Assembly (NCBI GenBank): GCA_017427265.1
Contig: JAFRTG010000024.1
Coordinates: 1-36,183 of the forward strand
Source of the DNA: Oscillospiraceae bacterium
GTDB taxonomy: Bacteria > Bacillota > Clostridia > Oscillospirales > Ruminococcaceae
Direction of reading: 5' to 3'
Length of the DNA: 36,183 bases
Part shown: piece after piece, positions 3,926-22,140 of the stretch
Numbering within the stretch: position 1 is the first letter of the stretch
Layout: each line of letters opens with the position of its first letter
Notes under the pieces: generated by a model
Database searches by the model: none
The model's input: the letters and a program-made list of their open reading frames with translations, nothing else
Told to the model about the DNA's origin: nothing
Position numbers and translations under genes: made by a program

Positions 3926-4930
3926 GTGGCGCACTCTGAGCGGAACGTGTTTATGCTTTTATGCTTTTATGCTTTTATGCGCTGCATCACGCGCAAGGCA
4001 GTTTCCGGCTGCTGCGAATGGTGCACGGCAATGGCGGGGCGTTATGTCTACGGCGAGGAGCCTGACGACATTTACCGCCGCCACGACAACTGCGACTGCA
4101 CCGTGACCTTTGAGAACGGGCGCAAGCGGCAGGATGTGTGGAGCAAGCGGACTTGGGAAGCGCCGGAGCCGGGAGCGGGTGCAGGTGCACCTGTGGACTT
4201 CATTGGCAAAGAAGTTCCACAAAAAGACTTGACAATTCTTCCGAATAATGATACAATTAAATCAGAGAAAAGCATTCGCAGTTTTTCACAAGAGCTTACT
4301 GAAAAATATGGTTTTAAAATTAGCGAAGCTTTTGAGCAGCTTGACGAGAAATTGTGCAGAGATTCTTTTACTGGTTTTGAATACATATTGGCTGAGTTCC
4401 CGGAGCTTTTAAACACAGTTCAAAAAATAAAAGTTATCCGTACACACAAAGTACCAATGTCTTGTGAAAGAGGAACTCTCAATTTTAATTCTGATTATTT
4501 TTCATCCTATGATATTTTATCTGCGACGTGTAAAAGGCAGTCTGAAATACGACATTGGATCCAGAATTCTTCACCCGCATCTGTGATGGTTCATGAGTGC
4601 ACACATGCTATTGAGTCATTACTTATAAATCTATCTCCTGATTATCTGTTTGACTTTCAGAGAGAGGATGCATGGCGCGAGTGCAACGAAGCATCAAAGA
4701 TTGTTTCTAAAGCAATTGAAGAACTTCATCAAAATGGTATTGGGCTTGATCAAAGCAAAGTTCAGCTTGTTTCTGCTATTTCAAAGCAGTCGCTTATCAG
4801 TGATTCCGAAACTTTGGCAGAAGCGTTTGCTGATGTATATGCGAATGGAACGTCAGCTAATCCTTTGTCAATCATTATCAGAAGGATAACTTTTGATACA
4901 TATTCAAGTTATAAGAAAGGGCGTGTTTGA
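3926..4930 (+). pseudogene. 5'-truncated MuF phage head protein fused to a zincin (HExxH) domain
   Basis: The frame is open for 334 codons from a GTG at 3926, but no SD precedes it or the in-frame ATGs at 3953 and 3977, so the original N-terminus seems lost. Residues about 18-75 (CITRKAVSGCCEWC, then RRHDNCDCTV and KRQDVW) match the C-terminal Cys/His-rich end of MuF/SPP1-gp7-type head morphogenesis proteins. After a short Gly/Ala/Pro linker, residues about 95-334 form a separate AT-rich domain with HECTH at 223-227 and a downstream ETLAEAFAD (295-303) that can supply the third zinc ligand, a gluzincin-like pattern. MuF proteins with C-terminal toxin domains are a known class of phage polymorphic toxins. 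The peptidase activity is inferred. The 5' truncation suggests a decayed prophage; the toxin domain itself has no internal stop. Three small phage-like ORFs follow. Confidence 0.7.
3953..3980 (+). repeat. Octanucleotide tandem repeat (ATGCTTTT)
   Basis: Three and a half copies of ATGCTTTT (3953, 3961, 3969, partial at 3977) lie at the start of the MuF-zincin frame. The unit is not a multiple of three, so gain or loss of a copy would shift the frame entering the gene. Confidence 0.85.
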
Positions 4931-5570: not shown

Positions 5571-5599
5571 TTTGTAAAATTCGCAGAAATATGTATAAT
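5571..5599 (+). promoter_or_regulatory. Candidate promoter of the ECF sigma operon
   Basis: A perfect -10 TATAAT at 5594-5599 with a weak -35 TTTGTA (5571-5576) at 17 bp. It lies 63 nt before the sigma-factor ATG. No classical ECF-type -35 (GGAAC) was seen nearby, so autoregulation by the sigma factor is not obvious from sequence. Confidence 0.5.
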
Positions 5600-5661: not shown

Positions 5662-6207
5662 ATGATTGAAATGCACCCCGGCAGCCGGTACGAAATGGTA
5701 TCGGAGCTCTTCAGACTGTACGGCAAGCTGATGTATGATGTTGCGTACAGTATTTTGAAGCATGAGCAGAATGCGGAGGACGTTGTGCAGGAAACCCTGC
5801 TGAAGCTGATCGAAAAATCCGATCAGTGTGAACAGTTCGTTCCGCAGAAAATGCGGCGTTTCATCACTGTGATGACGCGGAATACCGCGCTCGATTTCCG
5901 CCGCAGACAACAGCGTAATATTGCTGTCGATATGAACGAGGAAGAAAACCAGAGCGTGCTCTCGCTGGTCTCCAGCGACGAGGATATCTTTCAGGCGCGC
6001 GAGCTGGCCGCTTCGTTCCGTCAGCTGGATGAGGACGAGCAGGATTTGCTCTGGATGAAATACTGGGAACGGCAGACAAGCCGGCAGATCGCAGCACGAC
6101 TGCATATTTCAGAAGCAGCGGCGGTCTCCCGTCTGCGCCGTGCCAGGGAACATCTGAAAGAGCTTTATCTGAATGGAGGTGAATCCGGTGGATCCGTATC
6201 AGTTTGA
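5662..6207 (+). CDS. ECF-type RNA polymerase sigma factor
   Basis: A 181-aa protein with the two domains of ECF sigma factors. Region 2 is residues about 13-80 (LYGKLMYDVAYSIL, AEDVVQETLLKL, then the helix MTRNTALDFRRR). Region 4 is residues about 112-168 (LDEDEQDLLWMKYWERQTSRQ, then IAARLHISEAAAVSRLRRAR as the helix-turn-helix). It should direct RNA polymerase to a small regulon on release from a partner. ATG at 5662 is chosen, with AAGCGGTG about 6 nt upstream; an in-frame GTG at 5653 would add three residues. The 3' end overlaps the next gene by 20 nt, and that gene encodes a single-pass membrane protein, the usual arrangement for a sigma/anti-sigma pair. Confidence 0.9.
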   Translation: MIEMHPGSRYEMVSELFRLYGKLMYDVAYSILKHEQNAEDVVQETLLKLIEKSDQCEQFVPQKMRRFITVMTRNTALDFRRRQQRNIAVDMNEEENQSVLSLVSSDEDIFQARELAASFRQLDEDEQDLLWMKYWERQTSRQIAARLHISEAAAVSRLRRAREHLKELYLNGGESGGSVSV

Positions 6208-7564
6208 CGAATTGATGGAAAAAATGATGTGTGAGGTCGCTGAGGAACGGATTGACCATCAGGATCACGTTTTCTCCGACGATTTTGAATTCGAGCTGCA
6301 GCGGAAGCTCCGTGCAAAAACACGCACCTCGCAGACCCGGCAGGCGCAGCGCAACCGCATTATCGTCAACAGCGGTTCGGATGCCGAAACAGTGCCGGCC
6401 TGTCAAACAAGGAAAAATGCGTATAAACCCTTCCCGAAGGCGTATGCAATCGGCGGCATGGCTGCATGCCTGCTGCTGGGCGCGGTTCTCTTCCGGGGCT
6501 GGCAAGGCCTCCGGGAGCAGATCGTTCTGAGTGAGCAGAGCACGCCGGAGCAGATTACCGAATCCGGACAGGCTGTGCCTGAACAGAGTTCTGCTCAGGT
6601 TCAGGAGCCGGCCGAATCTCAGGCGGAGAACAGCTTTGCAGCGCCGACTGCAGAGCAGCAGCCTTCGCAGGCAGACGTTCCGCAGGAGGCGATTCTCCCC
6701 GCGCTGCCGGATCAGGCTGAAAATATTTCCACAGAACCCGCCGTGCCGGAAAAAATTGTGACTGTTGTGACAGTTCTGAAAACTGTGACGGTCGCACCGG
6801 TGACGACGCTTTCCGAAGTGACTACCACAACGGCTGCGCCGGTGACGCATGAGCCGGGCGATGCGGAACAGAACGCTGAAATCCCGGAGAAGGTCTATTC
6901 CAAATGTGAGAAAAACGGACTTCCTGCCGATAAAGTGGATGAGATGTTCGCAGAGAAAACGAAGAAAAATCCGACGAAGGATTATGATTATGTTTTCTAC
7001 TGCGAGTGCGAAAAAACAGACAGCGCGTTTACTGCGGACATTCTGACGGATGTTGATACATCGAAGGTTTCATTTTTCGATGCAGTTCCGCTGAATCGCA
7101 GGACGCTTGACGTTTCTCCCGCGATGACGGATGAGGCAGACACAGAGCCGGGCTGGACACGGTATCGCAATACAGTGTCCGGAAACGGAAAGTACAGCAG
7201 GTTCGTATACCGCCTGGTGTGTGAGGAGCCTGTCGATCCGGAGAAGCCGGAACAGTGTATCGTTCAGGGTACGGTATTGAGTTTTACCGTAAACGGCGAG
7301 CCTGCTCCGAAGCCTGAGGACTATATCCATCCCTTCTATCACAGGATGATCGCGCTGGGCGATGTCAACGGCGACAATCAGGTTGACGTTACGGATGCGA
7401 ACCTTATTATTCAGTACAGCGGCGGTTCGTCGGTCTCTGCCATCAGCGACCGCGGAAAGCTGGCTGCAGATGTCAATCTGGACGGAATTGTTGATTTGGA
7501 TGATGCTGTTCAGATTCTTACCTACATTGCCAACTGTGTTCCCCACGTGTGGGGTAACTGTTGA
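6188..7564 (+). CDS. Putative transmembrane anti-sigma factor with extracellular dockerin
   Basis: A 458-aa protein read from GTG 6188, which has GGAGGTG 6 nt upstream; the gene overlaps the sigma gene by 20 nt, suggesting translational coupling. Residues 1-84 are cytoplasmic, charged and partly helical (no zinc HxxxCxxC anti-sigma motif). Residues about 85-103 are a single membrane helix (AIGGMAACLLLGAVLF). Residues about 112-230 form a long Gln/Glu/Pro/Ala then Thr/Val-rich linker. Residues about 235-385 are an unrecognised extracellular domain. Residues 391-458 are a canonical type-I dockerin with two full calcium loops (DVNGDNQVDVTD and DVNLDGIVDLDD). Layout and operon position imply an anti-sigma factor that senses, or is anchored by, a cohesin partner outside the cell. 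The anti-sigma role is inference; the membrane topology and dockerin are seen directly. Confidence 0.8.
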   Translation: MDPYQFDELMEKMMCEVAEERIDHQDHVFSDDFEFELQRKLRAKTRTSQTRQAQRNRIIVNSGSDAETVPACQTRKNAYKPFPKAYAIGGMAACLLLGAVLFRGWQGLREQIVLSEQSTPEQITESGQAVPEQSSAQVQEPAESQAENSFAAPTAEQQPSQADVPQEAILPALPDQAENISTEPAVPEKIVTVVTVLKTVTVAPVTTLSEVTTTTAAPVTHEPGDAEQNAEIPEKVYSKCEKNGLPADKVDEMFAEKTKKNPTKDYDYVFYCECEKTDSAFTADILTDVDTSKVSFFDAVPLNRRTLDVSPAMTDEADTEPGWTRYRNTVSGNGKYSRFVYRLVCEEPVDPEKPEQCIVQGTVLSFTVNGEPAPKPEDYIHPFYHRMIALGDVNGDNQVDVTDANLIIQYSGGSSVSAISDRGKLAADVNLDGIVDLDDAVQILTYIANCVPHVWGNC

Positions 7565-7604: not shown

Positions 7605-7643
7605 GCCTGCTTCGGGTTTCCGGGGCAGGCACTTTTATTTTTT
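7605..7643 (+). terminator. Terminator of the sigma/dockerin operon
   Basis: GCCTGC (7605-7610) pairs with GCAGGC (7625-7630), with an inner CGG-GTTT-CCG stem, followed by ACTTTTATTTTTTG. It lies 40 nt after the operon stop. Confidence 0.65.
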
Positions 7644-7845: not shown

Positions 7846-7874
7846 TTGACAAGCGGCTGAAAATATGCTATAAT
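7846..7874 (+). promoter_or_regulatory. Consensus σA promoter of the flotillin gene
   Basis: TTGACA (7846-7851), 17-bp spacer, TATAAT (7869-7874), both perfect. It lies 89 nt before the flotillin start. Confidence 0.9.
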
Positions 7875-7963: not shown

Positions 7964-9520
7964 ATGCTGTCTACCCTGATTGCTGCGTTCCAGTTTGAAC
8001 TCCCGTTCAACCCGATTACCGCTGCCGCGATCGTCATTGCAGTGATTCTGCTGATTATCGTACTGGCCTCCGGTTACCTCAAGGCGCCGCCGGATACTGC
8101 TTATATTATCTCCGGTCTGCGCAAAAAGATCATCATCGGTAAAGCGAGCATCCGCATCCCCTTCTTTGAGCGTGTCGATAAACTGAAGCTCCAGCTCATC
8201 GCTGTCGATGTCAAGACTTCCAGTGCGGTTCCGACCGCAGACTACATCAACATCAATGTTGATGCAAACGTCAATGTCAAGGTTTCCAGCGACCCGGTCC
8301 TCATTAAGCTCGGCGCTGAGAACTTCCTGAATAAGGATACTGCCTATATTGCAAAGGTCGCCAGAGAGGTTCTGGAAGGTAATATGCGTGAGATCGTCGG
8401 CCAGATGACGCTGGTCGCTATGGTCAATGACCGTAAGGCGTTTGCGGAAAAGGTGCAGGAGAATGCTGCGCCCGACCTCAACCGCATGGGTCTGGAAATC
8501 GTTTCGTTCAATGTTCAGAACTTCACCGATGACCAGAACCTGATCGAAAACCTCGGTATCGACAATGTGACCACGATTCAGAAGAAGGCTGCGATTGCAA
8601 GAGCAGAATCCGAGAAGGAAATCGAAATCGCAAAGGCTGCTGCCCAGAAGGAAGCCAATGACGCAAGAGTTCAGGCGCAGACCGAAATCGCAAAGAAGAA
8701 CAATGAGCTGGCGATCCGTCAGGCGGAACTGAAAAAGGATGCCGATACCCAGCTCGCTATCGCGGATGCTGCGTATGAAATCCAGAAGGAAGAGCAGCGC
8801 CGTACAATCGAAGTCACCAGAGCAAATGCAAATATCGCTGCATCTGAGAAGGACGTTGAACTGAAGGCCAAGGAAGCTGAGGTCAAGGAAAAGGCCCTCG
8901 ATGCAGACGTCAAGAAGATGGCTGAGGCTGCACGCTATAAGGCACAGCAGGAAGCCGATGCAAAGCTCTATCAGCTGAAGAAGGAAGCCGAAGCAGACCG
9001 CTTCCAGCGTGAGCAGGAGGCCGAAGCACAGAAGGCTGAGGCTGAGGCCGCAAAGTATGCGAAGATGCAGGAGGCCGAAGGTATTGCCGCTGTCGGTCAG
9101 GCAGAGGCTGACGCAATCCGCGCAAAGGGTCTTGCAGAGGCGGAAGGTATCAACGCAAAGGCTGAGGCTATGAAGAAGTACGGCGAGGCTGCTGTCCTCG
9201 AAATGTACTTCAAGGCACTGCCGGACGTCGTCAAAAATGCTGCGATCCCGCTTGCCAATGTGGATAAGATCACCATGTACGGTGACGGCAATTCCAGCAA
9301 GCTGGTGGGTGACATCATCAGCTCGACCACCAAGATCACCGACGGGCTGACCGAGGCAACCGGCATTGACCTGCGTGCGCTGCTGGCAGGATTCCTCGGC
9401 GGCAAGCTCGCAGACCCGAAGAACAAGGCTGCGCTCCCCGATGAGCTGCCCTCTGAGAGTGAGGCGTTTGCGGACTATCATCCGGAAAATGATCCCAACA
9501 ACCGCCTTGCGGATATGTAA
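7964..9520 (+). CDS. floT: Flotillin (SPFH-domain membrane scaffold protein)
   Basis: A 518-aa protein. It has an N-terminal membrane segment (about 18-37, ITAAAIVIAVILLIIVLASG). The SPFH/band-7 domain spans about 40-210 (PPDTAYIISGLRKK, IRIPFFERVDKLKLQLI, VQNFTDDQNLIENLGI). A long Ala/Glu/Lys-rich coiled coil follows (about 215-400, many EAE/KAE repeats). The C-terminal part is flotillin-like (MYFKALPDVVKNAAIPLANVDKITMYG). Flotillins organise functional membrane microdomains. The coiled coil and length fit the FloT/YuaG type rather than the shorter FloA. ATG at 7964 has AAAGGAAG 8 nt upstream. The next gene follows after only 3 nt. Confidence 0.93.
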   Translation: MLSTLIAAFQFELPFNPITAAAIVIAVILLIIVLASGYLKAPPDTAYIISGLRKKIIIGKASIRIPFFERVDKLKLQLIAVDVKTSSAVPTADYININVDANVNVKVSSDPVLIKLGAENFLNKDTAYIAKVAREVLEGNMREIVGQMTLVAMVNDRKAFAEKVQENAAPDLNRMGLEIVSFNVQNFTDDQNLIENLGIDNVTTIQKKAAIARAESEKEIEIAKAAAQKEANDARVQAQTEIAKKNNELAIRQAELKKDADTQLAIADAAYEIQKEEQRRTIEVTRANANIAASEKDVELKAKEAEVKEKALDADVKKMAEAARYKAQQEADAKLYQLKKEAEADRFQREQEAEAQKAEAEAAKYAKMQEAEGIAAVGQAEADAIRAKGLAEAEGINAKAEAMKKYGEAAVLEMYFKALPDVVKNAAIPLANVDKITMYGDGNSSKLVGDIISSTTKITDGLTEATGIDLRALLAGFLGGKLADPKNKAALPDELPSESEAFADYHPENDPNNRLADM

Positions 9521-20586: not shown

Positions 20587-22140
20587 ATGAACAGGAAACT
20601 CATACGGCTGCCGGCGCTTCTGGCGGCTGCAGCGGTCGGCTTTTCAATGCTCCCGCGGCTTTCTGCGTCTGCTGCGGTGCAGAAGGAGCTGACCGGTTAT
20701 TACGGGGATCTGACATTTGATAAAACAGTTGACATTGAGGACGTGATGCTGCTTTCCGACGGACTGACCGTGCAGGAGTCCATGCGGGATGAACAGTATG
20801 AACGTGCGGATCTGAATCATGACGGCGAAGTGAATGCCGTCGATCTGACTCTGCTGAAGCGTGCTGCAATCGGTGAGCTGGAGCCGGAAGCGATCTATAC
20901 CGAGGTCGAGGTGCCGGACAAGCTGATTGATGCGCCGATCCGTTCGCTCTATCAGTATCTGCCGTCTGTGGGGGAAGCGAATATTCTGATGATCGCGGTG
21001 GATTTTCCGGACGCAAAGCATCCGGAGCAGTACAGCGCCGAACAGATTCATACGCTTACCTTTGGCGATGAAAACAAAGCAGATCCGTGCTATCCGCTGG
21101 AGAGCATTTCTGCTTACTATACCAGATCATCTTACGGGCGGCTGCATCTGAACGGCGATGTTTATCTGTATACTGCGCAGAAGAATATTGACGATTACAT
21201 CAATCAGGAAATCATGCTGCTGGACGAGGTGCTGGGCGCACTGGATGCGGAGATCGACTATAACCGCTACAACGCGAACGGCGACATGGCGATCGACACG
21301 ATGCTGCTGGCACTGCCGCCTTCCTCAGATCCGGAATTCGGATGGTCGAGCCCGTTCTGGCCCTGCTCTTTCGGCTACAGCGGCAGAAAAACATTTGACA
21401 ATCTCTTTCCCGGCAATATCTGCATGGGGCGCTGGGCTCTGAGCGACCGCGCCGGCTTCAACAGCACATGGATACACGAGCTCGGTCATGCAATGGGTCT
21501 GCCGGATTACTACTACTATGAGAACGCGATCGGCAACGGCGACGGCCTGACCGGTGAGGCGGGGTATCTGATGATGGATGATTCCATCGGCGATATGTCC
21601 GCATTTGACAAGCTGATGCTCGGCTGGTATGCCGAATCCGAGGTGCAGATCTATTCCGGCGGCACGCAGACCTATCAGCTGGATTCCAGCCAGCACGCGC
21701 CGGGCTGCGTCATCGTGCCGTATAAGGAGCTCAACGGGTACATGAGCGAATACTTCGTGATCGAAAATGTGACGTCGGACGGCAACAATGCGTCCAAGCT
21801 CTACGGCTGGGGACAGGTCTTCCCGCTGTTTCAGAAGGGCGGCCTCCGGGTGATGCACTGCGATTCGGAGCTCATGTACAATTTCTGGCGGCAGCCTGTC
21901 GCACTGAAATGGAACAATTACAGCCCGTACTACGACAATTCCAATCTCAAGCAGCGGATTCTGCGGCTTGTCAACGACGGAAAGGGCTTCTTCCGCAGCC
22001 GTTCCGTGATCTCGAACCAGACGTCCGGCTTTGCATGGTATGATGCGGAGGGCGGCCAGACGGTCGATCCGGGCGTGACCATTCAGGTCGGCGGCTTTGA
22101 GAACGGCATCTGCAGCTTTACAATCTCACAGACAACGTGA
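20587..22140 (+). CDS. Secreted M6-type metalloprotease with N-terminal dockerin
   Basis: A 517-aa protein. It has a signal peptide with likely cleavage after SAS-A near residue 29. A dockerin follows at residues about 40-97, with calcium loops DLTFDKTVDIED and DLNHDGEVNAVD. The catalytic region starts near residue 125 (ANILMIAVDFPDAKHPE). It has HELGHAMGLPD at 297-307, the HExxHxxGxxD zinc motif of M6 (immune inhibitor A-like) metalloproteases, and a later GWYAESEVQ region. The dockerin would place a protease in a cellulosome-like complex, anchored at its N-terminal side. The SD (AAAGGAGG) sits 14-20 nt upstream of the ATG, rather far; no closer SD was seen. It is monocistronic, with promoter and terminator visible. 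Confidence 0.88.
   Translation: MNRKLIRLPALLAAAAVGFSMLPRLSASAAVQKELTGYYGDLTFDKTVDIEDVMLLSDGLTVQESMRDEQYERADLNHDGEVNAVDLTLLKRAAIGELEPEAIYTEVEVPDKLIDAPIRSLYQYLPSVGEANILMIAVDFPDAKHPEQYSAEQIHTLTFGDENKADPCYPLESISAYYTRSSYGRLHLNGDVYLYTAQKNIDDYINQEIMLLDEVLGALDAEIDYNRYNANGDMAIDTMLLALPPSSDPEFGWSSPFWPCSFGYSGRKTFDNLFPGNICMGRWALSDRAGFNSTWIHELGHAMGLPDYYYYENAIGNGDGLTGEAGYLMMDDSIGDMSAFDKLMLGWYAESEVQIYSGGTQTYQLDSSQHAPGCVIVPYKELNGYMSEYFVIENVTSDGNNASKLYGWGQVFPLFQKGGLRVMHCDSELMYNFWRQPVALKWNNYSPYYDNSNLKQRILRLVNDGKGFFRSRSVISNQTSGFAWYDAEGGQTVDPGVTIQVGGFENGICSFTISQTT

Follow-up and report, generated by a model that had tools for sequence, protein, structure and literature searches.

The stretch of DNA analysed here (the window, 36,183 nt) makes up the entire contig C22 in a 3.82-Mb assembly. 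On its forward strand it bears two overlapping genes, coding for a sigma factor of the ECF type (P0001) and for a membrane protein that ends in a dockerin (P0002). The features of this locus are as follows.

5572..5599, + strand: promoter-like site TTGTAA-16-TATAAT upstream of the sigma gene (consensus scan, 10/12; putative)
5662..6207, + strand: ECF sigma factor gene P0001, 181 aa, ATG start (PF04542 and PF08281 over cut-off)
6188..7564, + strand: membrane partner gene P0002, 458 aa, GTG start, overlapping the sigma gene; putative anti-sigma factor
6188..6439, + strand: N-terminal domain of P0002, residues 1-84, predicted to be cytoplasmic (alignment of three sequences)
6440..6493, + strand: membrane helix, about residues 85-102 (hydropathy)
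6494..6892, + strand: linker, Q/E/P-rich and then T/V-rich (sequence)
6893..7351, + strand: X domain, residues 236-388, of no Pfam family; relatives only in the genomes G024 and G016 among 30 congeneric genomes
7355..7528, + strand: type I dockerin with two complete calcium loops, residues 390-447 (PF00404)
7605..7630, + strand: terminator-like hairpin behind the pair (11 pairs, 8 of them G-C, T-rich tail)

P0001 consists of sigma-70 regions 2 and 4 only, over approximately 180 aa. Region 2 (PF04542, 2.3e-13) and region 4 (PF08281, 4.1e-10) both exceed the Pfam cut-offs, and TIGR02937 is matched with 76.4 bits for a cut-off of 42.9. As judged from its domain content, P0001 is a member of the ECF family. 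The original prediction had proposed an ECF-type rather than a sigma-I factor, overlapping by 20 nt a membrane gene with a canonical dockerin, and these three points were all confirmed, the overlap lying at 6188-6207. The GTG at 6188 is the better start for P0002, because a GGAGG (6175-6179) is found 8 nt ahead of it and the alternative ATG placed mechanically at 6173 overlaps this GGAGG. The promoter-like site of the sigma gene is of the housekeeping rather than the ECF type. Its TTGTA, and not its TATAAT, is common to the orthologous loci in genomes G002 and G019 described below, and no shared ECF-type motif was recognised by eye in the three upstream regions. Elsewhere in the window, a gene for an SPFH/flotillin protein follows directly behind the pair (7964-9520, + strand), with a perfect TTGACA-17-TATAAT at 7846-7874, and the frame at 3926-4930 (+ strand), upstream of the pair, has a weak match, below cut-off, to the phage VG15 family. 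The 517-aa protein encoded at 20587-22140 (+ strand) begins with a signal-like sequence, bears its dockerin (6.8e-10) at the N-terminal end and matches Peptidase_M6 slightly below cut-off.

The predicted architecture of P0002, with an N-terminal domain, one helix, a linker, an unannotated domain and a dockerin, was found again, the description of the linker as Thr/Pro-rich being only roughly right. In the N-domain, F6, E11, M14, A18, E20, I22, H27, F29, D32, F33, E34 and L37 are invariant in the three sequences aligned. A V/T-rich stretch around residue 190 was picked out by the hydropathy script as well; it is probably part of the linker, since Lys occurs in it and the G019 orthologue has a single helix. 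From the sequence we infer a topology with the N-domain inside the cell and the dockerin outward. Pfam assigned the N-domain to no known family, and neither Pfam nor NCBIfam gave a convincing family for residues 236-388. No known anti-sigma domain was found in P0002 by Pfam, zf-HC2 and DUF4179 both being absent, and there was no match to RsgI_N (PF12791), so that the label 'anti-sigma factor' rests on context. The AlphaFold2 models were too poor to use, both for P0002 alone (mean pLDDT 40.9) and for the N-domain with its two orthologues (mean pLDDT 60.1, pTM 0.20); the low-confidence N-domain model has helices at 3-19 and 33-52, plus the membrane helix at 85-114.

The dockerin of P0002 scores 34.7 bits with PF00404 (cut-off 22.9), and 38.7 bits in the genome-wide dockerin search. 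Both calcium loops, as read from the sequence, carry Asp or Asn at positions 1, 3, 5, 9 and 12. A dockerin HMM trained on 56 dockerins of the same genome gives 56.9 bits, and as the P0002 dockerin is itself one of these 56, it is the Pfam score that provides independent evidence. In the PDB, P0002 is matched best by the group I dockerin 5m2o_B (E 1.1e-3). The genome as a whole yielded 129 dockerin and 22 cohesin matches, the dockerin search having scored 150 of 242 candidates, with 56 of its 129 matches aligned. These numbers make it very likely that the source bacterium, a gut, Ruminococcus-like cellulose degrader, is a cellulosome maker. Among the 55 other dockerins aligned, the closest to that of P0002 share 36-44% identity with it. 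They belong to three GH9-CBM3 proteins, a cohesin-dockerin protein, a transglutaminase-like protein, an LRR_5 protein and a GH43 protein, the dockerin of the last being present in the genome-wide dockerin listing and missing from a later domain scan. By eye, basic residues common in this subgroup are replaced by Q, T and N in P0002, which suggests that cohesin binding may be lost or different. When the positions of the Ruminococcus flavefaciens group 1 dockerins are mapped by eye, P0002 has V, T, N, I and Q at the first five, so that it may possibly bind a group 1-type cohesin.

Clear orthologues of P0001 were found in two of the 29 other congeneric genomes, G002 (54% identical) and G019 (53%), the search itself giving 55% identity; the sole further match at E 1e-14 is only 28% identical. 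In both genomes the sigma gene is overlapped by a gene for a membrane partner with the same N-domain as P0002. Because both orthologues were found through their sigma genes, this linkage is not independent evidence. Among the 30 congeneric genomes, strong matches to an N-domain model were confined to these three loci and four further matches were weak (E 0.015-0.097), which shows an absence of stray copies rather than an independent linkage to sigma factors. Homologues of the membrane gene away from any sigma gene, which the original prediction had regarded as speaking against it, were thus not among the strong matches. It had also proposed a search of related genomes for conservation of overlap and dockerin, and the overlap is present in both orthologous pairs. 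Whereas the sigma factor and the N-domain are conserved across the orthologous pairs, the ectodomains differ: X-dockerin in P0002, LRR_5-like in G002 and one-loop dockerin-like in G019. A search of public contigs with P0002 gave no relative, and one with the sigma alignment gave the G002 and G019 loci and one weak match (25% identity). Since searches with the whole of P0002 are dominated by its dockerin, the N-domain, the one-loop dockerin-like domain and the X domain were searched separately.

From the promoter region as far as the linker, the G002 and G019 loci share 93.4% DNA identity (1115 nt aligned); beyond this they diverge, and a 67-nt match resumes behind the next gene in G002. This next gene codes for an LRR_5-like dockerin protein (dockerin 29.5 bits; LRR_5 26.4 bits for a cut-off of 27.7), and the locus (L066) lies at C169:2642-5415. 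Over 830 nt, the ectodomain DNA of the G002 partner has 94.5% identity with the LRR_5-like part of this gene, of which it is a copy that stops before the dockerin. This reads as a recent exchange of ectodomain.

The X domain occurs in three of the 30 congeneric genomes: in that of the window, on P0002, in G024 and in G016 (E 4.4e-7, with a model built from the P0002 and G024 sequences). In G024 and G016 it lies not on the membrane partner but on a separate dockerin protein whose start resembles a signal peptide (the dockerin scores 43.6 bits with PF00404 in G016 and was identified by eye in G024), encoded 91 nt (G024) or 70 nt (G016) behind an ECF gene and its partner with a one-loop dockerin-like domain. 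All three X-dockerin proteins end in HVWG, followed in P0002 by two further residues. The sigma factors beside the G024 and G016 genes are not close to P0001, and the X-dockerin unit therefore occurs with two different ECF chassis, fused to the partner once and as the next gene twice. On reading the sequences we rejected the idea that P0002 is a sequencing artefact joining a partner to an X-dockerin gene downstream of it, since P0002 lacks the one-loop dockerin and the signal peptide that lie between the two in G024 and G016.

Pairs of this layout are numerous in the genus. BLAST with P0001 against its own genome gave 30 matches at E up to 10, the weakest of which are not ECF factors; as sigma genes were found here by BLAST and not by a family model, some may be missing. 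Of the frames that start close to the sigma stop, we took the longest as the partner, a choice that favours long frames. On this basis, for 26 of 27 partners in the genome of the window the gene overlaps that of the sigma factor and the product has a helix near its N-terminus, with an overlap of 4 nt in 21 of the 27. The corresponding figures for G024 (3.6 Mb) are 55 of 60 and 39 of 60; no early helix is present in four of these 60 'partners', and some of the rest are surely false, for example an RpoD-like frame. G024 has 69 matches to the sigma-70/ECF model, which also catches other sigma-70 factors, and 62 sigma frames were found in the stretches examined. From this genome alone, we judge the array to be unusually large. 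A complete dockerin was found on one of the 87 partners surveyed in the two genomes, namely P0002. Among 29 partners (25 from the genome of the window and four from relatives), Pfam at E 0.1 gave PASTA in two, DUF4179 in two and dockerin and LRR_5 in one each, as well as one zf-HC2, which we take to be an anti-sigma domain. RsgI_N exceeded its cut-off in none of the 30 congeneric genomes, with sub-threshold matches in two, in agreement with the predicted departure from sigma-I/RsgI.

In these 29 partners Pfam at E 0.1 missed cohesin-like and one-loop domains, and we therefore used an own cohesin HMM and profile comparisons. The one-loop dockerin-like domain, searched with seeds from three sigma partners (G019, G024 and contig C18 of the genome of the window), gave 26 matches in 14 of the 30 congeneric genomes. 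One match at a contig edge (L120) was set aside, leaving 25 assessable. A sigma frame lies immediately upstream and overlaps the partner in 22 of these, or 19 of 22 without the three seeds; overlap here means that of the sigma frame with the stop-to-stop frame of the partner. Of the five matches with E between 8e-5 and 9e-4, three lie beside a sigma gene. The three matches without a sigma gene are L136, L137 and L139, the last of which, judged by eye, is an LRR-like protein with a complete dockerin. In L136 (G019, contig C46) and L137 (G023, contig C152) the start is signal-like, the one-loop dockerin-like domain lies near the N-terminus and no sigma gene adjoins. The resemblance of this domain to dockerins is limited to the first loop (hhalign probability 87%, 19 columns), and it is not a complete dockerin. 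Among 197 genomes of the family that were sampled, the genome of the window is the one with such ectodomains.

The cohesin HMM was built from 17 cohesins of the same genome, none of them from sigma partners. It marked three partners in this genome (G000) as cohesin-like:

C14:47701-49852: partner L076, 54.7 bits
C11:21947-24174: partner L077, 48.7 bits
C49:89210-90969: partner L036, 20.3 bits, the sole basis for this assignment

A partner in G024 also matches this HMM (38.0 bits). With a profile of the C14 and C11 ectodomains, the first five PDB matches are cohesins, three of them with E below 0.01 (best 5n5p_A, E 1.1e-4), and comparison with the cohesins of the genome gives an hhalign probability of 96.9%. 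A related profile that includes the G024 partner recovers places that PF00963 also marks as cohesin (C3 and C18). A single cohesin-like sequence searched against the PDB gave nothing of use. No match to the cohesin or dockerin HMM was obtained with 1740 shuffled partner sequences under default filters. These cohesin-like ectodomains would be the mirror image of the P0002 dockerin.

Among known systems, the pair works most like sigma-I/RsgI of Acetivibrio (Clostridium) thermocellum and A. cellulolyticus, where a cellulosome maker likewise has multiple pairs of a sigma factor and a membrane anti-sigma factor. In those pairs a cytoplasmic part is described as binding sigma, followed by a single helix and by ectodomains of modular make-up (PMC3413522, PMC6056542). 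The RsgI ectodomains are CBM, PA14 or GH modules, whereas that of P0002 ends in a dockerin, and sigma-I, as defined in PMC6056542, has a C-terminal domain of its own instead of region 4, whereas P0001 has an ECF-type region 4. With region 4 present and RsgI_N absent, the pair falls outside sigma-I/RsgI on both features tested. It shares with sigma-V/RsiV and sigma-P/RsiP of Bacillus the proposed combination of an ECF factor and a membrane anti-sigma factor; anti-sigma factors of this type are described as controlled by proteolysis (PMC6066255, PMC8844934). P0002 differs from them in having no match to DUF4179, an anti-sigma domain according to PMC6066255, and in its ectodomain of cellulosomal type. 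The X module-dockerin dyads of R. flavefaciens (ScaB, CttA and a putative cysteine peptidase) are reported to bind ScaE (PMC5301203). We liken them to P0002 by layout, the X module standing directly before the dockerin in both; these dyads are not known to be sigma partners. The group 1 dockerins of R. flavefaciens sit on secreted proteins, and several of their surface residues differ, by eye, from those of P0002. Our searches of the openly available literature brought up no paper in which the partner of an ECF factor is a dockerin or cohesin protein.

The best reading of these data, to which we give a probability of roughly 0.45, is that P0001 and P0002 form a sigma/anti-sigma pair that reports the state of the cellulosome through contact with a cohesin. 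The N-domain of P0002 would hold the ECF factor at the membrane, and the X-dockerin end, outside the cell, would plug, or fail to plug, into a cohesin of a scaffoldin. The presence of the cellulosome, its occupancy or its engagement with the substrate would then change the ectodomain and release the sigma factor to its presumed target genes, probably by regulated proteolysis as in RsiV/RsgI-type systems. The pair belongs to an ECF array of the genus whose ectodomains include a dockerin, one-loop dockerins, cohesin-like domains and the LRR part of a dockerin protein. Several observations speak against this reading: a complete dockerin is carried by a single partner out of 87, the subgroup residues are replaced, the promoter-like site is of the housekeeping type, P0002 has no known anti-sigma domain, and some partner ectodomains, such as PASTA (two of 29), are unrelated to cellulosomes. 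The original prediction is partly supported, in its layout rather than in the sensing role that it proposed for the dockerin; the dozens of pairs, the exchange of ectodomains, the cohesin-like partners and an X domain that travels with a dockerin had no place in that proposal.

The cohesin-contact reading has two main rivals. In one, which we find doubtful, the X domain would sense a small or polymeric ligand, and the dockerin would only tether this sensor of a sigma/anti-sigma pair beside scaffold and substrate. The restriction of X to the neighbourhood of ECF pairs, whether fused or encoded by the next gene, agrees with this, as does the use of binding modules for sensing in RsgI systems (PMC3413522, PMC12484212); however, in G024 and G016 X sits on a separate dockerin protein rather than on the membrane partner, and it has neither a known fold or ligand nor a usable structure model. 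The other, which we regard as unlikely, holds that the dockerin came in as a by-product when ectodomains were shuffled from dockerin genes nearby and has no role in signalling, the pair sensing envelope stress or something else. A recent copy of this kind is seen in G002, where it stops before the dockerin, and the substituted subgroup residues and the PASTA ectodomains would also fit. Against it, both calcium loops of P0002 are intact and its HVWG end is shared with the X-dockerins of G024 and G016, which suggests selection on the X-dockerin unit. Quite improbable, in our view, is that P0002 has no anti-sigma role and is a membrane anchor that recruits scaffoldins and is co-transcribed with the sigma factor. 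Through its dockerin end it could keep a scaffoldin with a cohesin at the membrane, and its N-domain belongs to no family, but sigma factor and N-domain are conserved together where the ectodomains differ, and dozens of pairs with unrelated ectodomains repeat this layout.

Returning to the cohesin-contact reading, we tentatively extend it to the genus, with some reserve. Dozens of ECF/membrane pairs would take the place of sigma-I/RsgI, and part of them would carry connectors (dockerin, one-loop dockerin-like or cohesin-like) that are exchanged as cassettes with cognate secreted dockerin proteins, the cell reading the assembly of its own cellulosome via cohesin-dockerin contacts. According to one survey, only cellulosome makers of the Acetivibrio type use RsgI receptors (PMC11557425), and the regulation of ruminococcal cellulosomes seems open. 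The system offers named parts that can be tested, and the difference in ectodomain between G002 and G019 is a natural, ready-made experiment. The layout of P0001 and P0002 suggests that the state of the cellulosome may feed back on gene expression; if this is true, transcription would be set not by a sugar but by how a machine outside the cell is assembled.
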